This document shows, piece after piece, positions 1 through 15,357 of a DNA stretch of 64,000 nt; position 1 is the stretch's first letter; each line of letters opens with the position of its first letter. The translations under genes and the position numbers were made by a program. The notes under the pieces are model-generated. The model saw only the letters and a program-made list of their open reading frames with translations. It did not search any database and was not told the DNA's origin. Source of the DNA: an uncultured Flavobacteriaceae bacterium (GTDB taxonomy: Bacteria; Bacteroidota; Bacteroidia; Flavobacteriales; Flavobacteriaceae); assembly GCA_947500445.1 (NCBI GenBank), contig CANMSB010000006.1, forward strand, positions 62,001 to 126,000, read 5' to 3'.

Positions 1-2
1 GC

Positions 3-323
3 ATGAACGATGTTTCGCTGTTGGAAGAACTGATACGCCTGTACAAACAAAATGCAATTGAATTCATTGGAGCGGCCAAAATTCACTTGGAGCAGTCCAA
101 TTTTAAAGGCTTGGAATTTGCGCTCCATAAAATGAAATCGGGGCTGGCCATGATGAAAACCTACAGCCTGCATGCCATTGTTACCGAAATGCACACCTGC
201 TGTAAAGCAGAAAAAGACCTGAAACACCTAAACTATCTGTACCAATCCTTTTTAGAGGAATATCCGCTAGTAGAAAATCAGATAGAAATGGCGCTGACCT
301 CCATCAAACAACAAAAAAGTTAA
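3..323 (+). CDS. Hpt (histidine phosphotransfer) domain protein
   Basis: This short helical protein (about 106 residues) carries the Hpt signature, an H-K-M-K-S-G segment around residue 42 in which the histidine would accept and donate the phosphoryl group. Hpt domains relay phosphate between a hybrid kinase receiver and a terminal response regulator. The stop lies two bases before the response regulator gene, so the two are probably co-transcribed and functionally paired. The ATG at base 3 sits at the window edge, so the true start, or a larger protein with a C-terminal Hpt domain, could lie upstream. No kinase domain is visible in the window. Confidence 0.7.
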   Translation: MNDVSLLEELIRLYKQNAIEFIGAAKIHLEQSNFKGLEFALHKMKSGLAMMKTYSLHAIVTEMHTCCKAEKDLKHLNYLYQSFLEEYPLVENQIEMALTSIKQQKS

Positions 324-325
324 CC

Positions 326-697
326 ATGGTATCCAAACAGCTTTTATTGGCCGAAGATGACGAATTGTTGGGGTCATTGTTGCGTTTTCGCCTGCAAAAA
401 GTGGGATACGAGGTGGCACACGTCACCGATGGCAAACAAGTAAAGGAACATTTAGGAGAGGACATTCCGGATATTATCGTCAGCGATATCATGATGCCCT
501 ATTTTTCGGGCATCGAACTTATCGATTATGTGCGCAACGAACTGGATTCAAAAGTGCCAATCATCATCATTTCATCGGCAGGAAACGAAGAAAATGTGCT
601 GAGTGCTTTTGAGCTCGGTGCAAACGATTTTATATCAAAACCGGTGAGTCCGTCAGAACTTCTCGTCCGTGTAGCAAGAGAACTGAACAAAACATAA
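326..697 (+). CDS. Single-domain response regulator (REC)
   Basis: This is a stand-alone receiver domain of 123 residues. It has the acidic pair at residues 10-12 (E-D-D), the phosphoacceptor Asp54 in the S-D-I-M-M-P segment, a Ser around 83-84 at the switch position, and Lys105 in the S-K-P motif. There is no output domain, so it must act through protein contact. It lies two bases after the Hpt gene and one base before the HEAT-repeat gene. The likely reading is that Hpt phosphorylates this receiver, which then docks on a neighbouring protein; the HEAT scaffold and the glycosyltransferase are the obvious candidates. The partner assignment is inference. Confidence 0.9.
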   Translation: MVSKQLLLAEDDELLGSLLRFRLQKVGYEVAHVTDGKQVKEHLGEDIPDIIVSDIMMPYFSGIELIDYVRNELDSKVPIIIISSAGNEENVLSAFELGANDFISKPVSPSELLVRVARELNKT

Positions 698-698
698 T

Positions 699-3600
699 TT
701 GCAGTTTACCGCCCAAATATACCGAACCTACGACCTCATTACCGCACCTAAGATCCACACGGATCTTTTGTGGGATTTGACCTTGTTGTTCCTGGGCATA
801 GCGTTTCTTTATTTTCTGGCCATCTTTCTGTTCAAAAAGCAGCTCTCCAAGCGCTCGAATAAAACAAAAAAGATCAAACAGGAAATCGCCCCGATGATCA
901 GTGAGTTTATTTTTCTGGAAGAAGACGCCACTAAAGACGAAAAAAGCAGTTACGTAAACCTCAAAGTTGAAATTCGGGAATTGATAAAATCGGCGTTCTA
1001 TCGCAAAACGGTTACCGAAATTCTTATGGACCTACGAAAGGATGTTTCCGGAACTGCCCGGAAACGACTTTTTGAACTGTTCAAAGATTTGGGACTTCAT
1101 CAAGAATCGTATAAAAAACTTCATGCGTTGCGTTGGGAGCGTATCTCCAAGGGGATTATAGAATTGACCCAAATGCGGGTAAAGGAGTCGTACGGACTGA
1201 TCAGCAAGTTCATCAACGACAAACGGCCTACCATAAGAAAGCAGGCCGAGATTGCCGTGGTTACCTTAAAACCGGAAGGAATCAACCACTTTTTGGACAC
1301 CACCAAGCACCGTATATCCGAATGGCAACAACTAAAATTGATGGAAGTGCTGAGCAACAAGGAAAACTTTTTGCCCCCTAGCTTTAGGGTATGGCTAACC
1401 TCAAAAAACAAGTTTGTGGTGCTTTTCGCCCTTCGTCTGATCAAACATTACGATCAAAATGATGCTTATGCGTCTATTACGGAACTGGTAAAACATAAAA
1501 ACAATAGAATAAAACAGGAAGCGATCGATTGTATTAAAACATTCCATATTACCGACGCCATTCCAACATTAAAAACAGTTTTTTGGAAATGTTCGGTAAA
1601 CATCAAAATAGCCATATTGGATGCCATTGGCAACTTGGGCGAAAAGGAAGATCTGCCCTTTTTAAAGCTGATAGAAAATAAGGAGTCCAGTTTCCCGGTG
1701 AGAAGTAAGGCCTTGGCCGCCATTAATATGATTGTGCCCGAAACGGTATTGCCCACCGAAGGAATCGTAGATACCAAAAACTATAATATTCCCAAGGACA
1801 TTCGTGGTGCAAAAATGGAAACGATGCCCGAGGATCCTACGATAGATGAGTACCGCGATACCATCACTCCGGAAAATACCGCGGATACTTCAACCGATGA
1901 CAATTCCGAAACACTGCCGGAAGCAGATGTGATATCCGACCAGGGCGAGGCCGATTTGGTATCCATCAAAAACGAAAAAAAGGACGATGAAATAGCTCCT
2001 ATCTCCGAGGAACCTGGCGAAGCCATAGTAGAAAATACCCAAAAAATGACCGGAACATCCTTATCGGATGAAAAAAAATCAATTGACCAAGACCAGAAAA
2101 CCGAATCCATTTCCAATACCTACAGCATGAAGGACAACCACGAGCCAAAAGACCCTAAACCGAAGGATGTTACCAAAAATGTTTCGGAATCTTCCGCTGA
2201 ACATGAATCTTCCAAAAAAGATACTATGGAAGCGCCAACTGAAATACAACCGGCGTTTTCCATAGCGTTTTTACCCGTTGTAATCGATGGGAGCGTTGGT
2301 ACCGATGAAACCGAAACAACCGATAATGTCGAAACTACCGGCGAAACGGACGATGTCGTAGACATCAAGGTCGATTTTGAATTGTTAGCACCCATTGTCG
2401 AGGATACCAAAGAAATCACGGAAGAACGCAAGCCCATCAGGTTTGACGTAACCGATGCTGAAATGTACTTTATTCCCATCGTTGAAAATCCGCTGCCCTC
2501 CGTTACAGCTCAGTATTCCTTTGCCGACGCCAGCGTAAAAACACAAACGGACTTTAAGGAACTGGAGGTCGTGGATTACAATGAGATTATTGCTTTGGAA
2601 AAGGCAAAAAAACCAGGATTTGTTGATGCTAAGGAACTTGTGGTCCGGTATGAAGCGATTTCGGCAACACCGGAAGTAAAAACCGGCTTTGACATAAATG
2701 AGCTTCCAGTAGTTTATGATAAGGTATTGGGAAATGGCCCTTCGGACAACGCACAAAATAATCCGGCGGTCAATACTATAGCACCGGAAGTAACGGAACC
2801 GATGTTTACCGTGGTCTTCAAAGACCTACCCGAACGGCCGGTACAGGTACCGCTCGAAAGTACCGATGTTAACGAAATAACGGTAAGCTACGAAGAAATC
2901 AAAAGTATTGCCTTGGACCAATGGCTACCGGTAAGCAAGGAAACGGAATTCAAGGAGGAGCCTACAAATACCCCACTCGACCATGATATGGACGCTGAAA
3001 TAGCGAATAGTCCGGATACCGAAGAGGATATCGCCGCAAACGAAACCGAGGAGACTGCTGAGGAAAGTATCGCGGAACAGGATATTGCGGAACAACAGCT
3101 GCCCAGTTGGTTGCTTAAAGAAATTGAAGCACCGGAAGAAACAACGGACAAAACTACGGCGATCAAGATGGAAGGACCGGAATGGGAAGCCAAAACCTCC
3201 AAAATGATACACGATATCAACTACTACCTCCAATATTTACCGAGCAATAAAAAATATGATAGCGATATGGTAGATACCATGCAACTTTTAGACGATATCG
3301 ATTTTTTTGGTGACGAGCGAGAGCTTCCCTTGTTGGACGAGTTGATGCAAAAGGAAAAAAAGGAAGCGGCATTGGTCCGCATAAAAGACATCATGGCACG
3401 TTTTCAGGGGAACGCGCCTTTGGATGATGGAAACGCTACCGAAACCGAAGGCACGGTCAAAAACAACGAGCCCTACAGTATATTCCAAGAGTTTTTTAGA
3501 CACTGCGATACCGATTCCAAGTTGATATTGCTGGACGAGATCGTTGCCGTAGGCGACCATAAGGAAGTTTATTTTTTGGGAAAGCTGTTAAGCGACCCCG

Positions 3601-3923
3601 AACGGCGTATTCGCCGTAAAGCCGCAAAAACCTTAAAGGAGCTGAAAGAACGATTGGGCATTGACCCCGAACAGAATATCGAAAAAAGGGAACAAGCGAC
3701 CGTCTTGAACGCTCCGGGAGATTCTTCGGAAGGAAAGATAGAACGGCTATTGGGACAAATGGATATTCAGCCACCAAAGGAAAAGGGCATTTTCGATATT
3801 GATTTCGAACTGTTGGGAGAAGAGGCACCCACAACCGTCACCGGGCCAAAAGCAAAGAAAAAGAGTGGTAGCGTTCGGGATTCCATTTTTAAACTGTTCC
3901 AAAGAACGAACAAAAAAAAGTAG
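699..3923 (+). CDS. Large membrane-anchored HEAT-repeat scaffold protein
   Basis: This 1074-residue protein has one N-terminal membrane helix (about residues 23-46), a block of HEAT-like helical repeats (about 110-345), a very long acidic low-complexity linker (about 355-800), and a C-terminal HEAT-like region (about 820-1030) with a basic tail. The linker contains recurring short segments of the type D-x-[KN]-E-[LI]-x-V-x-Y, four of them encoded at about 2549-2900. No catalytic motif is visible, so a scaffold role is inferred. The start is a TTG one base after the response regulator stop. The next ATG codons would delete the membrane helix, so TTG is preferred. Its position between the receiver and the synthase suggests it couples signalling to the synthase. 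Confidence 0.75.
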   Translation: MQFTAQIYRTYDLITAPKIHTDLLWDLTLLFLGIAFLYFLAIFLFKKQLSKRSNKTKKIKQEIAPMISEFIFLEEDATKDEKSSYVNLKVEIRELIKSAFYRKTVTEILMDLRKDVSGTARKRLFELFKDLGLHQESYKKLHALRWERISKGIIELTQMRVKESYGLISKFINDKRPTIRKQAEIAVVTLKPEGINHFLDTTKHRISEWQQLKLMEVLSNKENFLPPSFRVWLTSKNKFVVLFALRLIKHYDQNDAYASITELVKHKNNRIKQEAIDCIKTFHITDAIPTLKTVFWKCSVNIKIAILDAIGNLGEKEDLPFLKLIENKESSFPVRSKALAAINMIVPETVLPTEGIVDTKNYNIPKDIRGAKMETMPEDPTIDEYRDTITPENTADTSTDDNSETLPEADVISDQGEADLVSIKNEKKDDEIAPISEEPGEAIVENTQKMTGTSLSDEKKSIDQDQKTESISNTYSMKDNHEPKDPKPKDVTKNVSESSAEHESSKKDTMEAPTEIQPAFSIAFLPVVIDGSVGTDETETTDNVETTGETDDVVDIKVDFELLAPIVEDTKEITEERKPIRFDVTDAEMYFIPIVENPLPSVTAQYSFADASVKTQTDFKELEVVDYNEIIALEKAKKPGFVDAKELVVRYEAISATPEVKTGFDINELPVVYDKVLGNGPSDNAQNNPAVNTIAPEVTEPMFTVVFKDLPERPVQVPLESTDVNEITVSYEEIKSIALDQWLPVSKETEFKEEPTNTPLDHDMDAEIANSPDTEEDIAANETEETAEESIAEQDIAEQQLPSWLLKEIEAPEETTDKTTAIKMEGPEWEAKTSKMIHDINYYLQYLPSNKKYDSDMVDTMQLLDDIDFFGDERELPLLDELMQKEKKEAALVRIKDIMARFQGNAPLDDGNATETEGTVKNNEPYSIFQEFFRHCDTDSKLILLDEIVAVGDHKEVYFLGKLLSDPERRIRRKAAKTLKELKERLGIDPEQNIEKREQATVLNAPGDSSEGKIERLLGQMDIQPPKEKGIFDIDFELLGEEAPTTVTGPKAKKKSGSVRDSIFKLFQRTNKKK

Positions 3924-3930
3924 AACGGTA

Positions 3931-5361
3931 ATGGATAGCGAATTCTTTCAGGTCGTCCTTAATTACATAAACGTAATATTTTTTACGTTTACGGTGGTAC
4001 TCTTTTCCATGTTTACCCTAATGGGATACCTATCCACAAGAAATTCCATCCATTATCGAAATAAAAATAGCTTTGGTGATCTCTCCAAAGTAATGGCATC
4101 CCCGCTTGCACCGAGTATCACCATTATCGCACCAGCGTACAACGAAGGCCTGACCATTGTAGAAAACATACGCTCGTTATTGTCGTTGCGGTATGTGAAC
4201 TACGAGGTAATGGTAGTGAATGACGGGAGTAAGGACGATACCTTACAGAAAATGATCGAGGCATATGACTTGGTAAAGGTACCTAGGGAAATAGATCCGG
4301 AATGGAAATCGAAACCCATTCGCGGCATCTATCGATCCAAACACCGATCTTTTTCGAAACTTACGGTCGTAGATAAGGAAAATGGAGGAAAATCCGATGC
4401 CTTGAATACGGGTATGGCGCTTTCAAGCAATCAGTATGTTGGTTGTATCGATGTCGATTGCCTGTTGCTGCCCGACGCGCTTTTACATGTGGTAAAATCG
4501 TTTTACCAACGGTCGGAGAAAAGGGTGATTGCCGTAGGCGGGGTAATCCGTGTTGCCAATTCCTGCGTGATCCAAGGTGGCCAATTGGAAGAAATTCGCC
4601 TTCCCAAAAACTGGCTGGCCCGTTTCCAATTGCTGGAATATACCCGTTCCTTCATCTTAGGGAGAATGGCGTGGGGACGAATCGATAGCCTGTTGATCAT
4701 ATCGGGAGCTTTCGGTTTCTTTGATCGCGAAATCGCCAATGCCGTTGGCGGATACGACACCAACACGGTAGGGGAGGATATGGAAATCGTGTTTCGGATG
4801 CGCCGGTATATGCACGACCGCAAGATGCCCTATACCGTAGAGTATATTCCCGATTCCCTATGCTGGACGGAAGTTCCGGAGGACTTGAAAATTCTGGTCA
4901 ATCAACGCGATCGCTGGGCACGGGGCAATTTGGAAACCTTAAAGACCCATAGGGACATGTTTTTTAATTCCAAATATGGGCGATTGGGGCTGATCAGTTA
5001 TCCGTATTGGTTTTTTTATGAATGGATGGCCCCGTTGTTGGAGTTTTTCGGCCTTTTCACGATCATCATCTTTTATTACTTGGGAATATTGAATTTCGAT
5101 TTTTTCCTGGCCATTACCGCGGCCGTATACATGTACTCCATAATGTTCTCTTTTTATGCGATTCTATGGGACGTGTACTCCTATAACGAATATAAGAAAA
5201 CCAAGGACATCCTAATATTGATGTTCTGCGCCATTATAGAACCCATAACCTTTCACCCCATTGTCGTGTGGGCAGCGGTCCGGGGCAATTACAAAAAATT
5301 GTTCAAGATAAAATCCGGTTGGGGCTCCCAGGTAAGAAAGGGATTTGCCAAGGCAACTTAA
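3931..5361 (+). CDS. Processive family 2 glycosyltransferase, membrane polysaccharide synthase
   Basis: This 476-residue enzyme resembles PgaC/BcsA/NfrB-type synthases that polymerise and extrude a polysaccharide across the inner membrane. It has an N-terminal membrane helix, a GT-A domain starting near the A-P-A-Y-N-E segment, V-N-D-G-S and D-V-D motifs for nucleotide sugar and metal binding, a G-E-D acceptor motif, and the Q-R-D-R-W motif typical of processive enzymes. At least three further membrane helices follow. The ATG at 3931 was chosen because it follows the upstream stop by seven bases and directly begins the membrane segment; a longer reading from 3799 would overlap the HEAT gene. 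The sugar donor cannot be read from sequence. There is no PilZ domain. Confidence 0.9.
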   Translation: MDSEFFQVVLNYINVIFFTFTVVLFSMFTLMGYLSTRNSIHYRNKNSFGDLSKVMASPLAPSITIIAPAYNEGLTIVENIRSLLSLRYVNYEVMVVNDGSKDDTLQKMIEAYDLVKVPREIDPEWKSKPIRGIYRSKHRSFSKLTVVDKENGGKSDALNTGMALSSNQYVGCIDVDCLLLPDALLHVVKSFYQRSEKRVIAVGGVIRVANSCVIQGGQLEEIRLPKNWLARFQLLEYTRSFILGRMAWGRIDSLLIISGAFGFFDREIANAVGGYDTNTVGEDMEIVFRMRRYMHDRKMPYTVEYIPDSLCWTEVPEDLKILVNQRDRWARGNLETLKTHRDMFFNSKYGRLGLISYPYWFFYEWMAPLLEFFGLFTIIIFYYLGILNFDFFLAITAAVYMYSIMFSFYAILWDVYSYNEYKKTKDILILMFCAIIEPITFHPIVVWAAVRGNYKKLFKIKSGWGSQVRKGFAKAT

Positions 5362-5370
5362 TACCAAAAT

Positions 5371-7716
5371 ATGAATACGAGCCAAATAGATAGTTACACC
5401 TTAAAACACTATACCCGAGCGGTCATAGCGTTTTTTGGATGCTTGGTGGCGCTGTCCATATTTCAATATAGCCTGCTCTACGCAAAAGGTATTGTGGATA
5501 TCATTTTTGGTAGAAGCTTTTTTATAGCGCTCGTTCACCATATCGGTTTTTCGTCGTTGACCGGTATATTTTTGGTATTTCCTTTCAAGTTTTTAGAAAA
5601 CCTAAGACCACGTTATGGCATGTATTTCGCTTTAGGGTCGCTGGGCGTTTTACTCTTGATCGAACTGTTTTTGACCGTATATTTTTGCACCGTGTTATTG
5701 CCTTTGGGGTCCGACATTGCTGCTTATAGTTGGGAAGAAGTCCGGTTTAAGGCCTTTAACGCCAATAGTTGGGGTACGCTGGGCTATTTTTTATTGGGGG
5801 CATTGTTGCTACAGCTCCTCTTTTTAGGAATGTACCGGTCTACCGTACGTTTTTATCGACTGATCAACGGCATGTTTCCGCTGACCTTGGTATTCTTCAG
5901 CATATTCATTACAGCCATGTTTACGCCGAGCAAGCCGATCAATCAAAACAAGACCTACTACTTGGGGCTTAACCTGTACCGCACGGCAACGGAAGAGCAT
6001 TCCTATGACGGGAAAAGTACGTATCCCTTGCTACGGCCCATACAGACACAGAATACGTTAAAGCCCTATTTCAATTTAAAAAAGACCAAACCGAATTTGG
6101 TTTTCCTTATCGTGGAAGGCTTGGGACGCGACTTTGTTGGTAAAGATGCTCCGTATGGTGGTTTTACCCCGTTTTTGGATTCCCTTAGCACGCAATCTTT
6201 GTATTGGAAAAACTGTTTGAGTACTACCGGAAGAAACTTCGGTGCCCTTCCCGCACTGGTGGGGTCCTTACCCTTCGGTAAAAATGGATTTATGGGGATG
6301 GAGGAATATCCGAACAAGCTAACACTTTACGGTATTTTAAAGAAGAACGCCTATCATACTTCCTATTATCAGGGCTCCAACGGTGCTTTTGACAATGTTG
6401 TACGCTTTCTTCAAAGTGAGGATGTCGACCTTATTTTGGACAAGGCGGGCTTTGGAAAAAATTATGATTTACAAACGGGCGATTCGGGAGGGTACTCCTG
6501 GGGATATCCCGATTTGGAGCTTTTTCGTAAGAGTGTAAGCCTCGATAGGAGCAAGGACACGCCCCGTATGGAGGTGTACCTTACCTTAAGCACGCGAGAC
6601 CCCTTTCTTCCCCCAAAAATGACGTACTACACCGAACAGGTAGAAAAAACCTTGGGGCGCCGGGCTTATGGAAAACGGGAACGCAGGATCATCAAAAAGA
6701 ACGATGGTGTTTTCGCAAGCTTGTTGTATGCCGATAATGCCTTGGCATGGTTTTTTGAGGCGTATAAAAAATTGCCCGGTTATGAGAACACCATTTTTAT
6801 CGTTACCGGAAACCATCTTTTGCCGGCCATACCCGCTAGAAACGAAATCAGCCGTTTTCATGTTCCCTTACTGATTTACAGTCCGCTGTTAAAGGCGCCT
6901 AGAAAGATGGAGGCTTTAAACTCCCATTTCGATATCGCACCCAGCATCGTATCCTTATTGCACAAGCAATATAACCTTAGCGTACCGGAAAAAACAGCCT
7001 GGCTTGGAAGTGGCCTAGATACCGAAAAAACCTTTCGGTCGGTAAAGCGCATTCCATTGATGCGAAACAAGAACGAGTTAAAGGATTATGTTAAGGGAAC
7101 CACATTCTTATCGGATGGTGAGGTTTTTGAAATGGACAAAAATTTGGGGTTAACACCTTTGGAAACCGAAGATGACACCTTGGAGCTTGCCTTAAAGCGG
7201 TTTAAGGGCGTCAATCAATACATTACTAAAAACAACAGGATCATTCCGGACAGCTTGGCCGTGTTCAACTTTGAAAAGGAAAAATTTAGCGGTCGGGATA
7301 TCGTATGGATACATAGTGTATTCAATGGCCATAATTTTGATCGGGCCTTTGATAGGGCAAGGGAATTGGCATTGGCAAAGGAGTATGACAGGGCCCTTTT
7401 ACTGTTGCGTTATATTGTTTCGGAAGTTCCTGGAAACGTAGACGCAAAAATACTTATGGGCAGGATCAATGGTTGGAGGGGACATTATTCGGATTCCATT
7501 ACCTTATTACAGGAAGCTATTGAGATGGTTCCGGACTACATTGATGCCTATGCGGCGTTATTCGATGTTTATTATTGGTCAGGCCGGTACAAGGAAGGAT
7601 ATGAATTGATTGCCAAGGTGCAGCAAAATAGCTCTAGGGCCGACGAAATATATGAGAAAATTGCTAGGGCAAAAAAACTATATGATAAGGAGAAACAACT
7701 GGCGACCGCCCAGTAA
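5371..7716 (+). CDS. LtaS/sulfatase-fold membrane protein with C-terminal TPRs, probably catalytically altered
   Basis: This 781-residue protein has about five N-terminal membrane helices (to about residue 188), an LtaS/alkaline-phosphatase-like domain (about 240-545), and a TPR-like tail (about 665-770). Typical LtaS enzymes transfer phosphoglycerol using a Thr nucleophile and a metal site. Here Glu249 is kept. However, the position aligned by eye with the nucleophile is Asn289 (R-N before A-L-P-A), the conserved T-N-H-x-P-F histidine is Arg409 (S-T-R-D-P-F), and the G-D-H motif is G-N-H at 480-482. His497 is present. It lies nine bases after the synthase. It may be a non-catalytic periplasmic component binding the nascent polymer or the YaiO barrel; activity using Thr285 or Thr286 is not excluded. 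Confidence 0.8.
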   Translation: MNTSQIDSYTLKHYTRAVIAFFGCLVALSIFQYSLLYAKGIVDIIFGRSFFIALVHHIGFSSLTGIFLVFPFKFLENLRPRYGMYFALGSLGVLLLIELFLTVYFCTVLLPLGSDIAAYSWEEVRFKAFNANSWGTLGYFLLGALLLQLLFLGMYRSTVRFYRLINGMFPLTLVFFSIFITAMFTPSKPINQNKTYYLGLNLYRTATEEHSYDGKSTYPLLRPIQTQNTLKPYFNLKKTKPNLVFLIVEGLGRDFVGKDAPYGGFTPFLDSLSTQSLYWKNCLSTTGRNFGALPALVGSLPFGKNGFMGMEEYPNKLTLYGILKKNAYHTSYYQGSNGAFDNVVRFLQSEDVDLILDKAGFGKNYDLQTGDSGGYSWGYPDLELFRKSVSLDRSKDTPRMEVYLTLSTRDPFLPPKMTYYTEQVEKTLGRRAYGKRERRIIKKNDGVFASLLYADNALAWFFEAYKKLPGYENTIFIVTGNHLLPAIPARNEISRFHVPLLIYSPLLKAPRKMEALNSHFDIAPSIVSLLHKQYNLSVPEKTAWLGSGLDTEKTFRSVKRIPLMRNKNELKDYVKGTTFLSDGEVFEMDKNLGLTPLETEDDTLELALKRFKGVNQYITKNNRIIPDSLAVFNFEKEKFSGRDIVWIHSVFNGHNFDRAFDRARELALAKEYDRALLLLRYIVSEVPGNVDAKILMGRINGWRGHYSDSITLLQEAIEMVPDYIDAYAALFDVYYWSGRYKEGYELIAKVQQNSSRADEIYEKIARAKKLYDKEKQLATAQ

Positions 7717-7743
7717 GATAACATTGCAATGGTATTGCGCATT

Positions 7744-9045
7744 ATGAACAAAAGCTTAAAGACCATATTGATCTTCCTTTGTGTAGGGGCAATGCCTTTT
7801 GTACATGCGCAGGATATGGCCTATGCGCAGCCTTCGGATCCCGATAGGGTACTTATACCACTTTCTAAGGTCGAAAACGGAGGGAATACCGAAAATAAGA
7901 TAGCCAAAACGACAATAGATTCGTTGGCCAAAATAGCGAACAAAAGCAGGGCCAAGGGCGACTATGCAACCGCTCGCGGCATGTATAACCGTATTACCTC
8001 CGTACATCGACAAGATGTAGATTTGTGGATCGCTGCGATCAAGAACGAGCTTTTTGCGAAAAACTATGCTACCGCCTTAGGGTTGCAGCATAAAGCTTTG
8101 TACTACCATGAGGGGAACAAAACGCTATTGCGACTGCAAAAGCGTACGATAAAAAAGATTACCAAAGCACAGAAGCATCAAAAAAACGGGGATACCGAAA
8201 CAGTGGCGTACGATAATGGCAATGAGGATATTGAAGCGGTTGCCAATGACCCTAGGAGTGAAGAAGAGGTCCCTTTGGAGACGGCCTTGGATACGGTTGC
8301 CAAAGAAAAGGTGCTCCTTAACAAATTTGGCATCCTGAATTCGTTCCAGATATTTGATCAGGTGTATGAACCGATGACGCTCTCCAGTTTTTTCTATGAA
8401 CGGGAAACCCAAGCGGGACTGTTAATTCCAAGAATCAACTACAGCAACAGATTTGAACAACAGGGGCTACAATATGAAATCGATTTTTATCCAAAATTTT
8501 CAAAACGGTTTTACGCCTACTTGAATTATGGATACTCAAATGCCAGCATTTTTCCAAACCATCGGGTAGGGGGCGACCTTTATGCCAACCTTCCAAAAGC
8601 TTATGAGCTATCTGCAGGAGGGCGCTATCTTAGTTTTGCGGATACCGATGTTACGGTAATAACCGGATCTTTAGGAAAGTATCAGGGCAATTATTATTTC
8701 TCCCTACGCTCCTATATTACCCCACAACCCAATAACCTCACACAGGTTTCGGGAAATTTGGTGGCCCGTAAGTACTATCGGGACGGGGAAAACTATTTGG
8801 GCATGACCTTTGGTATGGGCTATGCACCAGAACTACAACAATTGCGCAGCGGGGACGAACTCTTGGCCGAGACCCTACTTTATGTAGCATCACAACGTAT
8901 CGGGCTCGAATATCAATTTACCCCAAAAAGCGGACAACATATTTATCGAGCGGACCTTGGCGTGGCCCGTCAAGAGCTGACGTTCGACAGCGGAAACTAT
9001 TTCTGGTCGGTATCCGCGGGCATCACTTATAGGGTGAAGTTCTAG
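7744..9045 (+). CDS. TPR and YaiO-family outer-membrane beta-barrel protein
   Basis: This 433-residue protein has a signal peptide (about residues 1-23, ending A-Q after V-H-A), a helical TPR-like region (about 50-125), an acidic spacer, and a C-terminal beta-barrel domain of the YaiO type (about 205-433) rich in alternating aromatic strands and ending in an aromatic strand. YaiO lies next to a GT2 gene in Escherichia coli, and PgaA shows the analogous TPR-plus-barrel design for polysaccharide export. The likely job is the outer-membrane exit pore for the polymer made by the upstream synthase. The ATG at 7744 was preferred to an in-frame GTG/ATG 15 bases upstream because it directly starts the signal peptide. 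Confidence 0.85.
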   Translation: MNKSLKTILIFLCVGAMPFVHAQDMAYAQPSDPDRVLIPLSKVENGGNTENKIAKTTIDSLAKIANKSRAKGDYATARGMYNRITSVHRQDVDLWIAAIKNELFAKNYATALGLQHKALYYHEGNKTLLRLQKRTIKKITKAQKHQKNGDTETVAYDNGNEDIEAVANDPRSEEEVPLETALDTVAKEKVLLNKFGILNSFQIFDQVYEPMTLSSFFYERETQAGLLIPRINYSNRFEQQGLQYEIDFYPKFSKRFYAYLNYGYSNASIFPNHRVGGDLYANLPKAYELSAGGRYLSFADTDVTVITGSLGKYQGNYYFSLRSYITPQPNNLTQVSGNLVARKYYRDGENYLGMTFGMGYAPELQQLRSGDELLAETLLYVASQRIGLEYQFTPKSGQHIYRADLGVARQELTFDSGNYFWSVSAGITYRVKF

Positions 9046-9533: not shown

Positions 9534-10397
9534 CTATCCCAAATAGGTCTTCAACATTTTACTTCTAGAGTTGTGTCTTAATTTCCGGATGGCTTTTTCA
9601 CGAATCTGACGTACCCTTTCCCTGGTAAGGTCAAAAGTAAGCCCTATCTCCGCCAAAGTCATCGATTGCTGGTCACCGATACCATAGTACAATTTCACGA
9701 CATCGGCCTCTCTTGGCGACAAGGTCTCTAAAGCACGATTAATTTCGGTGTTTAACGACTGTTGCATCAGTATTTTGTCCGGCTTGGGAGATTCCCCGGC
9801 ACGCAGAACATCGTACAGGTTGGAATCCTCACCTTCGCGCAAGGGGGCATCCATAGAAACGTGTCTCCCGGAGTTTTTCAAGGACTGCTGTACTTCGTTT
9901 ACGGTCATTTCCAATTCCTTGGCAATCTCTTCCGCTGACGGCGGTCGCTCATGCGCCTGCTCCAAATAAGAAAAGGTCTTTTTAATTTTATTAATGGAAC
10001 CAATTTTATTCAAAGGGAGTCGTACGACCCTTGACTGTTCGGCCAAAGCCTGCAAAATCGATTGTCGGATCCACCATACGGCGTAAGATATGAACTTGAA
10101 CCCACGGGTTTCATCAAAGCGTTTTGCCGCTTTTACAAGACCTACGTTACCTTCATTGATCAAATCGGGCAATGTTAGCCCTTGGTTTTGGTATTGTTTT
10201 GCCACCGATACTACAAAACGAAGGTTGGCTGTCGTTAGTTTTTCCAAGGCGGCTTGATCTCCGTCCCTAATTTTCTGGGCCAATTCAACTTCCTCGCTGG
10301 CGGTTATTAAGTCAATTTTACTAATATCCTGCAAGTATTTGTCCAACGATTTTGATTCTCTGTTGGTTACCTGCTTGATAATTTTTAGTTGCCTCAT
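9534..10397 (-). CDS. rpoD: Primary RNA polymerase sigma factor RpoD/SigA
   Basis: This 287-residue sigma-70 protein has sigma regions 1.2 (about residues 16-50), 2 (about 55-125, with the conserved A-V-W-W-I-R-Q-S-I segment), 3 (about 135-205) and 4 (about 220-280, with a [12 protein letters not shown] helix-turn-helix). As in other Bacteroidota, it is short and lacks region 1.1. It directs housekeeping transcription and recognises the TAnnTTTG-type promoters of this phylum. The gene stands alone and ends at a strong terminator. It provides a good taxonomic anchor for the window. Confidence 0.97.
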
Positions 10398-13851: not shown

Positions 13852-15357
13852 TTGGAATTACAAAAGACCAACGAAAAAACGCTCTACAATTATCAGATAG
13901 AGGATTTGAATACGATTTTCGAATACCTCGATTCTGCCGAATCCGGTAATTTGCTGTACCAACTCCCTACTGGTGGCGGTAAAACCGTGGTTTTTTCCGA
14001 AATCGCGAAACGGTTCATCGAACGCAAAAAGAAAAAAGTGGTGGTACTGACCCACCGGATAGAACTGAGCGTACAGACCTCAAAAATGTTGAACGGATTT
14101 GGGGTCAAGAACAAGATCATTAATAGCGGCGTAAAAGAATTGCACGATCAGGATGAGTTCATGTGCTTTGTGGCCATGGTGGAGACGCTCAACAACCGTT
14201 TGCAGGAAGAAAAAGTGGCCATCAACAACATTGGTCTGGTCATTATCGATGAGGCCCATTACAATTCTTTTCGAAAATTGTTCAAGTATTTTGAAAATGC
14301 GGCTATTTTAGGGGTTACCGCTACACCCTTGAGTTCCAATATAAAATTACCGATGAAGGACAACTATCAAAAGTTGATCATCGGGGAATCGATAAGTTCG
14401 CTTATCGAGAAAAAGTTTTTGGCAAAGGCAAACATGTATAATTACGATGTAAGCCTACAAAGCCTTAAACTCGGGATAAACGGGGATTACACAGTAAAAT
14501 CATCCGACGAGCTGTACAGCAACCAAAGCATGTTGGGGAAGCTGGTCACCGCTTATAACGAAATAGCAAAAGGCACCAAGACCCTGATATTCAATAACGG
14601 CATCAACACCTCGCGCTACGTATACGAGACCTTTAAAAAAGGAGGGTATAATGTTCGGCATCTCGACAATAAGAATACGGCTGCTGAACGGAAGGAGATA
14701 CTTAGTTGGTTCTCGGAAACGCCGGATGCCATACTTACATCGGTCAGTATTTTGACCACCGGCTTTGATGAGCCTTCGGTAGAGACCATTATCTTGAACA
14801 GGGCCACCCGTTCGCTTACCTTATATTTCCAAATGATCGGTAGGGGATCCCGGGTATTGCCCAAAAAGGACGAGTTTACGGTTATCGACCTCGGGAACAA
14901 CATTGCACGTTTCGGGATGTGGAACGCTCCGGTAGACTGGCAGGAAATTTTTCATTTTCCCGATTTTTATCTTGAAAACATCAAGAACGACGAGGATATC
15001 GAGCGGGAATTCGTTTATGAAATGCCCCCGGAACTCAGGGCACAGTTCTCCAAATCGACGGAAATCGAATTTGACATCAAGGAAGAGTATAAAAAAGTTT
15101 TTGCCCAGGGCTTACGGTCCAAAGTAGTTTTGGAACGTAGCATTGAACAACACGCAAAAATTTGTGTAGAAAATTCCGAGGATGTTTTTGATGCCCGAAT
15201 TTTGGCCAAACAGCTGAAAGAAGAAATTGCCTATCGTGTACGACAGTATTCTTATTGTATCATGAACAATACCAAAAATTATAAGGAATGGTTGGAAGAG
15301 GATTATGGCCGTAGGCTCCGCTCCAGTATCTCCAAAAAGTTTGCCGATAAAATGTAA
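13852..15357 (+). CDS. DEAD/DEAH-box superfamily 2 helicase
   Basis: This 501-residue protein has the SF2 motifs in order: Walker A G-G-G-K-T (41-45), D-E-A-H (133-136), T-A-T-P, motif V T-T-G-F-D-E-P-S, and motif VI Q-M-I-G-R-G-S-R. A C-terminal extension of about 150 residues has no motif I recognise. The family (RecG/UvrB/RAD25-like SF2) unwinds or translocates on nucleic acid. The start is a TTG; it lies just upstream of the L-Y-N-Y-Q segment that precedes motif I, so little can be missing. No nuclease or methylase partner is adjacent, which argues against a restriction or defence system. Confidence 0.9.
   Translation: MELQKTNEKTLYNYQIEDLNTIFEYLDSAESGNLLYQLPTGGGKTVVFSEIAKRFIERKKKKVVVLTHRIELSVQTSKMLNGFGVKNKIINSGVKELHDQDEFMCFVAMVETLNNRLQEEKVAINNIGLVIIDEAHYNSFRKLFKYFENAAILGVTATPLSSNIKLPMKDNYQKLIIGESISSLIEKKFLAKANMYNYDVSLQSLKLGINGDYTVKSSDELYSNQSMLGKLVTAYNEIAKGTKTLIFNNGINTSRYVYETFKKGGYNVRHLDNKNTAAERKEILSWFSETPDAILTSVSILTTGFDEPSVETIILNRATRSLTLYFQMIGRGSRVLPKKDEFTVIDLGNNIARFGMWNAPVDWQEIFHFPDFYLENIKNDEDIEREFVYEMPPELRAQFSKSTEIEFDIKEEYKKVFAQGLRSKVVLERSIEQHAKICVENSEDVFDARILAKQLKEEIAYRVRQYSYCIMNNTKNYKEWLEEDYGRRLRSSISKKFADKM

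Follow-up and report, generated by a model that had tools for sequence, protein, structure and literature searches.

A run of six co-directional genes in an uncultured Flavobacteriaceae bacterium probably encodes a synthase-dependent exopolysaccharide machine that would be controlled post-translationally by a phosphorelay acting through a HEAT-repeat adaptor. The genes were located on the 64,000-nucleotide stretch of DNA analysed here (bases 62001-126000 of contig C6 of the bacterium's own assembly, hereafter the window) and code for a hybrid histidine kinase (HK), a stand-alone receiver (REC), the HEAT adaptor, a processive GT2 synthase, an LtaS-like protein and an outer-membrane YaiO protein (Table 1). 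Comparison with relatives showed that HEAT and GT2 are the constant core of this module across the phylum, that the receiver is near-constant and that the LtaS-like protein and YaiO are optional. The core is so defined because a HEAT-profile match (at least 20 bits) was found within 6 kb of the GT2 gene in all 99 loci of a phylum-wide draw, against 71 loci with YaiO and 31 with the LtaS-like protein.

Table 1. Genes of the module, with positions in the window and supporting profile matches
Gene product	Position	Strand	Supporting matches
Hybrid histidine kinase, C-terminal end including the Hpt domain	1..323	+	Contig ORF L009:10572-12323; Pfam HisKA, HATPase_c, Response_reg, Hpt
Stand-alone receiver without output domain	326..697	+	PF00072 4e-26 over residues 7-116 of 123
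HEAT adaptor	699..3923	+	PF13646 (HEAT_2 8e-12), PF02985
GT2 synthase, processive type, PgaC/IcaA-like, QRDRW	3931..5361	+	PF13641 6e-19, PF00535 1e-20
LtaS-like alkaline-phosphatase-superfamily protein with C-terminal TPR	5371..7716	+	PF00884 5e-20, TPR_19 3e-9
Outer-membrane YaiO protein	7744..9045	+	PF19413 5e-65, TIGR04390 8e-58

Gene order and conservation

The gaps along the run from kinase to YaiO measure 2, 1, 7, 9 and 27 bases, the last being 12 if YaiO starts at 7729. A sequence-only reading of this DNA had described six co-directional genes with gaps of at most about 30 bases, and both the spacing and five of the genes were upheld, namely the stand-alone receiver, the one-helix HEAT scaffold, the processive GT2 with its QRDRW motif, the LtaS-like multi-pass protein with TPRs and the TPR/YaiO barrel. 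The first gene, which it had taken for an Hpt protein at 3-323, was found to be the tail of a 583-residue hybrid kinase gene crossing the window's edge (G000:C6:60572-62323, starting 1428 bases before the window), with the methionine at base 3 being internal. A stand-alone Hpt protein was therefore rejected as an artefact of the window edge.

The phylum draw consisted of 395 genomes sampled evenly, with a GT2 match at E<=1e-60 in 94 of them; of the 106 matches, three belonged to loci already taken up, one lay within the stretch of another locus and two (G287 and G385) were left out. From the remaining 100 neighbourhoods L253 was dropped for having no GT2 open reading frame (ORF) above 200 bits, and 99 loci were analysed. 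A class draw of 295 genomes, counted by GT2 alone, gave a match in 40. Loci from named genomes (the best 80 of 547 confirmed loci) were also compared, together with a second set of 94 loci in the same counts. Totals of 174 and 193 loci hold duplicates (e.g. L042/L166, L043/L193 and L097/L217), the 99-locus draw being cleaner, and overlaps are overstated as each ORF was extended to its earliest start codon.

In 190 of 193 loci, HEAT was found on the same strand directly upstream of GT2, no more than 400 bases away, and in 181 of these the gap is 30 bases or less. HEAT was also found within 9 kb in 79 of the 80 named-genome loci, the exception (L198) beginning at a contig end. ORFs picked by adjacency went into the iterated HEAT profile; the first-round profile alone gave 156/172, and L164 and L263 are weak at the 20-bit cut-off. 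Chance adjacency was rejected on the basis of these conserved neighbourhoods and of the bacterium's own genome, in which 13 GT2 matches were found and, of the eight examined with flanks of approximately 1.5 kb, only that of the module has a HEAT-profile match.

Within the phylum draw, the LtaS-like gene occurred without YaiO in one of its 31 loci, while YaiO occurred without the LtaS-like gene in 41 of the 99. The best 80 named-genome loci, which span Maribacter, Zobellia, Robiginitalea, Flavobacterium, Polaribacter, Chryseobacterium, Sphingobacterium, Mucilaginibacter, Chitinophaga and Pontibacter, held the LtaS-like gene in 65 and YaiO in 70 cases within 9 kb, with Flavobacteriaceae of the Maribacter-Zobellia kind being the closest to the window by GT2. 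Locus L097 carries a second HEAT-GT2-YaiO set (13922-14983, +) directly after a full REC-HEAT-GT2-LtaS-YaiO set, and the module can therefore stand twice in tandem.

Closer to the window, adjacency of the genes in relatives, on which the sequence-only reading had staked itself, was found to hold within the family. The LtaS-like protein has a match in nine of ten genomes of the same genus (own included), G007 (86% complete) being the exception, and all seven fully covered loci of the other genus members (L041-L045, L048 and L049) possess HK-REC-HEAT-GT2-LtaS-YaiO in order, one with a kinase shortened to 343 residues; L054 is cut by a contig end. Order is kept in two other genera of the family (L046 and L047) with a kinase reduced to 243-251 residues, in which Hpt was the only domain recognised (one copy scanned). 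More distant genera (L050 and L051) possess REC-HEAT-GT2-LtaS-YaiO with no adjoining kinase, L051 having a divergent Hpt gene nearby.

HEAT adaptor and GT2 synthase

The HEAT protein was found to consist of an N-terminal transmembrane helix followed on its C-side by a K/R-rich part, a solenoid at residues ~70-341 (counted from base 711), a long acidic linker and a C-terminal HEAT stretch. An AlphaFold2 model of residues 1-365 in this numbering (mean predicted local distance difference test score (pLDDT) 92, predicted template modelling score (pTM) 0.81) showed a long N-terminal helix at 17-67 followed by a helical solenoid up to residue 341, and its Foldseek matches were generic HEAT/ARM solenoids. 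The single N-terminal transmembrane-like stretch is shared by 189 of 192 homologues, with a further such stretch in 14 of the 192. As more K/R residues follow this stretch than precede it in 180 of the 189, the solenoid is placed, by its sequence, in the cytoplasm.

GT2 possesses transmembrane-like stretches, and its residues D98, D174, D283, Q325 and W329 are conserved in 193/193 rows, with R328 of the QxxRW motif kept in 184. Its best NCBIfam model was that of PgaC/IcaA (TIGR03937, 2e-41), with 142 bits against a cut-off of 422, and a profile search against solved structures gave short matches only. The transmembrane-like stretches and conserved residues are consistent with the inner-membrane synthase of synthase-dependent systems. 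The possibility that HEAT or GT2 of the window contains a PilZ domain was considered and is unsupported, since none was found in either by Pfam scan and PilZ was found in one of the 395 phylum genomes.

Hybrid kinase and lone receiver

The kinase is built of HisKA, HATPase, REC and Hpt domains, lacks transmembrane stretches and has its Hpt histidine, by motif position, at His519 (window bases 126-128). Together with the separate receiver and its phospho-acceptor, Asp54 (conserved in 151/157 aligned receivers), all parts of a four-step phosphorelay are present by sequence. GT2 has a stand-alone receiver within 9 kb in 82/94 loci of the second set and in 74/80 named-genome loci, usually adjoining HEAT or YaiO, and kinases matching the profile of the module's kinase were identified in 31 of the 99 phylum-draw loci.

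LtaS-like protein

The LtaS-like protein has five transmembrane-like stretches, and its closest solved relatives by profile comparison were VP1736 (6e-23) and LtaS2 (4e-15), with LtaP and LtaS also found. It scores below the NCBIfam cut-offs for phosphoglycerol transferase I (34 bits versus 572) and LtaS (29 versus 970). BcsG is a further member of the alkaline phosphatase superfamily. Positions 249, 289, 409, 481 and 482 are E, T or S, H, D and H in most family members and in 15 background sulfatase-like proteins. The window copy has instead N289 at the nucleophile position (6235-6237), R409 at an active-site position (6595-6597) and N481 at a metal-ligand position (6811-6813), and does not possess the full set of metal ligands or the Thr/Ser nucleophile of LtaS and phosphoglycerol transferase.

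A tree was calculated from 97 family rows and four outgroup rows by a quick method with SH-aLRT (Shimodaira-Hasegawa-like approximate likelihood ratio test) support only, after nine of 106 rows had been dropped as short or identical. The five residues are intact in 75 of the 97 family rows, and the other 22 are explained by two state changes, one in a clade of 21 rows in which D481 is replaced by S, T or N, and one in the window copy alone, the end branch of which is 0.5 long versus 0.1-0.2 in its sisters. The clade holds Cellulophaga, Eudoraea, Robiginitalea, Muriicola, some Maribacter and further relatives, including two genomes of the window's genus. As judged from these residues, the LtaS-like protein is ancestrally catalytic and its active-site residues were lost twice, once in the window lineage. 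The 'pseudo-LtaS' of the sequence-only reading is therefore apt for the window copy as a local state and was rejected for the family, most relatives having kept the residues. That the gene was retained although its product lost the active site speaks for a second role of the protein, a structural one.

GT2 and the LtaS-like protein were found fused into one polypeptide in 12 of the 94 loci of the second set and in nine of the best 80 named-genome loci. The fusions lie in separate parts of the tree: one set unites Sphingobacterium and Chryseobacterium, another includes a Chitinophagaceae bacterium and a third falls within the family of the window. Identity between the window and L041 is 59% for the LtaS-like protein, 55% for YaiO, 92% for GT2 and 99% for the neighbouring sigma factor, with L041, L042, L044 and L045 sharing 74-82% (LtaS-like) and 67-74% (YaiO) among themselves; the HEAT protein shows no notable shift (54% to L041 vs 51-59%). 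By these identities, divergence in the window lineage is shared by the LtaS-like protein and YaiO but does not extend to GT2.

YaiO barrel

YaiO possesses a signal-peptide-like N-terminus followed by TPR-like helices and a barrel predicted to have 14 strands (AlphaFold2, pLDDT 84, pTM 0.60), and lies above the cut-offs of its family profiles (PF19413, 219 bits vs 23.9; TIGR04390, 196 vs 32). Top Foldseek matches of the model were general porins, the first 50 including 4y25 ('polysaccharide outer membrane secretin', which we take to be PgaA), PelBC, BcsC and porin OmpG. With porin-type matches of this kind, the fold alone is no proof of polysaccharide export. TPRs predicted to be periplasmic were identified at the C-terminus of the LtaS-like protein and the N-terminus of YaiO, the side being suggested by the transmembrane-like stretches and the signal-like N-terminus.

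Sister layouts possess a TPR-extended YaiO of 937 residues, followed by DUF4838 proteins. Such proteins stand after YaiO in layouts without an LtaS-like gene (L129, L121 and L156; 744, 774 and 736 residues) and are possibly polymer-trimming hydrolases, on our assumption that DUF4838 is hydrolase-like and that long-TPR YaiO plus DUF4838 is comparable to the TPR pore plus hydrolase of Bcs and Pga. An accessory protein of 382-399 residues with an N-terminal hydrophobic stretch was observed in 19 loci (e.g. L234:11803-12969, -), mostly beside YaiO or the LtaS-like gene, with no Pfam match in the two members scanned.

Cyclic di-GMP signalling around the core

A GGDEF match (E<=1e-10) was found in 189 of the 395 phylum genomes and, among genomes sharing at least the window's class (Bacteroidia), in G075 alone; at the same threshold there was none in any of the 44 synthase-bearing genomes of the class, own included. 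The own genome also had no PilZ match at E<=1e-5, and the combination of cyclic di-GMP (c-di-GMP) synthesis and a PilZ receptor, expected of a c-di-GMP-controlled synthase, was not found in it. Around the core, GGDEF genes were identified within 6 kb in 16 of 52 loci outside the window's class and in none of 47 inside, and none of the 99 loci combines a GGDEF gene with a kinase matching the module's kinase profile. This exclusion rests on profiles made in this analysis, with the GGDEF profile built from nine of the same loci and with unrelated kinases being able to escape the kinase profile.

The arrangements differ among outgroups. L254 has PAS-GGDEF-EAL followed by REC-HEAT-GT2, and L250 has HD-domain and epimerase genes upstream of HEAT-GT2 and CHASE3-GAF-GGDEF downstream. 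L138, L142, L145 and L256 have a REC+GGDEF fusion at the receiver's position, in all four cases without the GG[DE]EF motif that is kept in the other 14 GGDEF proteins of these loci. The genomes of these four (G193, G047, G096 and G088, respectively) each have one GGDEF match genome-wide. We tentatively suggest, at somewhat less than even odds, that HEAT is a phylum-wide synthase-control adaptor with exchangeable input, taking a phospho-receiver in the window's class and c-di-GMP in those outgroup classes that have GGDEF, EAL or HD-type genes beside the core. As PilZ is nearly absent, c-di-GMP would then be bound at the HEAT-GT2 unit itself.

Proposed mechanism and alternatives

From the domains, their conservation, the fusions and the lost active-site residues, we infer the following course of phosphotransfer, protein contact and export. 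The soluble hybrid kinase would pass phosphate in His-Asp-His order through its own HisKA, REC and Hpt domains to Asp54 of the lone receiver, which would act on the membrane-anchored cytoplasmic HEAT adaptor, and this in turn would gate the adjacent GT2. HEAT would thereby take the role held elsewhere by PilZ, Alg44, PgaD or PelD. GT2 would polymerise and extrude a glycan, which the LtaS-like protein, physically tied to GT2, would meet in the periplasm as a nascent chain. Ancestrally, the LtaS-like protein would add a phosphoglycerol-type group; the window copy is predicted to be dead and presumably structural, and the chain would be handed through the TPRs to the YaiO barrel. A synthase/TPR/barrel machine that takes its input from a phosphorelay and lacks a DNA-binding output, as proposed by the sequence-only reading, is accordingly still the best reading, with its Hpt protein, its 'pseudo' label and its constant core being revised as described above.

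Several observations weigh against this scheme. The contacts on which it depends, those of HEAT with the receiver and with GT2, are still predictions, the first being a plausible one that the sequence-only reading had also made. Some relatives have only a shortened kinase next to the module or none at all, and in ten of the 99 phylum-draw loci neither REC nor HK nor GGDEF genes were identified within 6 kb. Neither the LtaS-like gene nor YaiO was found within 6 kb in 27 of the 99, so that the export parts may sit elsewhere or differ. The six-gene run holds no sugar-nucleotide gene that would point to a particular polymer. The predicted 14 strands of YaiO fall short of the 16-18 strands of known synthase exporters. 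The kinase of the window lineage has diverged as well (54% to L041 and 49-55% to L041, L042, L044 and L045, versus 61-66% among those four), and the co-divergence is thus not confined to the LtaS-like protein and YaiO. Finally, the exclusion between kinase and GGDEF genes is confounded with phylogeny, and is for this reason treated as a lead pointing to a regulatory swap and not as proof.

The ten loci without a signalling gene, along with the greater constancy of HEAT (99/99) than of any signalling gene, would also suit a polysaccharide machine in which HEAT is a constitutive assembly factor of GT2 and the receiver either serves as a phosphate sink or acts elsewhere. We regard this as rather doubtful, since most loci of both sets have a stand-alone receiver no further than 9 kb away, usually beside HEAT or YaiO, and GGDEF proteins occupy or adjoin its place in some outgroups. 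A different product is conceivable, with GT2 making a glycolipid or lipid-linked sugar that serves the LtaS-like enzyme as the base for a teichoic-acid-like polymer of glycerol phosphate, as would be in keeping with LtaS2, LtaP and LtaS among the nearest solved relatives and with the active site intact in 75 of 97 rows. However, the LtaS-like gene lies within 6 kb of GT2 in just 31 of 99 loci, the active site was lost in two lineages that keep the module, and GT2 carries the QxxRW motif (Q and W in 193/193, R in 184/193) with PgaC/IcaA as its best, although below cut-off, NCBIfam model, all of which make such a polymer improbable. Least probable is that the LtaS-like protein is a pseudoenzyme throughout the family and a pure periplasmic scaffold; the three replaced residues of the window copy and the D481 replacements of the 21-row clade would fit this, but 75 of 97 rows keep all five residues and the tree needs just two changes between intact and lost.

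Comparison with known systems

Cellulose, alginate, Pel and poly-N-acetylglucosamine are switched on post-translationally by c-di-GMP, the receptors being the PilZ domain of BcsA, Alg44, PelD and PgaCD, respectively, according to the part of the source available (PMC8461298). Like Pga, Bcs, Alg and Pel as presented in the available parts of PMC9601211 and PMC8461298, the module possesses an inner-membrane GT2, periplasmic TPRs, an outer-membrane barrel and a co-encoded regulatory partner. Unlike them, it has a HEAT adaptor and receiver in place of a c-di-GMP receptor, a YaiO barrel predicted to have 14 strands, and other families for the modifying enzyme and pore. The likeness to synthase-dependent architecture claimed by the sequence-only reading thus holds for GT2 and the periplasmic TPRs as judged from sequence, and does not extend to the barrel, as these exporters are defined with a 16- to 18-stranded one in the text available (PMC9601211). 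The module is accordingly filed apart from the known systems; our best reading is that it works like synthase-dependent systems, yet belongs to none of those known.

The closest parallel to the LtaS-like protein was found in BcsG, a membrane-anchored periplasmic transferase positioned beside BcsA, with E. coli phosphoethanolamine-cellulose BcsA-BcsG-BcsC likewise combining a synthase, such a transferase and a TPR-bearing outer-membrane pore (PMC11379886, available in part). The LtaS-like protein differs from BcsG in being nearest to VP1736 and LtaS proteins, carrying TPRs and being fused to the synthase in several lineages, and no BcsB or PilZ gene is present in the window's run. For HEAT, the closest functional parallel is Alg44 of P. 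aeruginosa, which crosses the membrane once, has its regulatory domain in the cytoplasm and partners the GT2 Alg8; it has, however, a c-di-GMP-binding PilZ domain and a periplasmic domain where the module has a HEAT solenoid beside a receiver (PMC8461298, same part). The E. coli yaiS-yaiP-yaiX-yaiO locus also encodes a putative glucosyltransferase with a YaiO outer-membrane protein, but its partners are a putative deacetylase and acyltransferase, and genes for HEAT, receiver or LtaS-like proteins are absent from the stretch compared. In E. coli K-12 MG1655 (L165), yaiX, situated between yaiP and yaiO, is broken by IS2, and the locus is therefore probably impaired there.

No description of the module was found in the full-text literature, as judged by titles and the beginnings of abstracts and with subscription papers and preprints outside the scope, and the available part of an operon survey of biofilm machineries (PMC7112194) does not contain the terms Bacteroidetes, Bacteroidota, YaiO or HEAT repeat.

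Neighbouring gene

In the seven same-genus loci that extend beyond the module, the gene following it codes for a sigma-70-type factor (window 9534-10397, -, 287 residues). The window's copy is 98-99% identical to most of the same-genus copies compared and 96% identical to that of L043.

Implications

The absence of GGDEF from the 44 synthase-bearing genomes of the class, together with the near absence of PilZ, raises the question of how a polysaccharide synthase is gated in such bacteria, for which the module is a concrete and widespread candidate. Gating by a phosphorelay can be tested through point mutants at a single receiver aspartate. The LtaS-like protein offers a natural experiment, being a polymer-modifying enzyme whose active site appears to have been lost twice inside a conserved machine. 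Should the input to HEAT prove exchangeable, this would be one machine swapping its signalling currency and, to our knowledge, the first phosphorelay-gated polysaccharide synthase.

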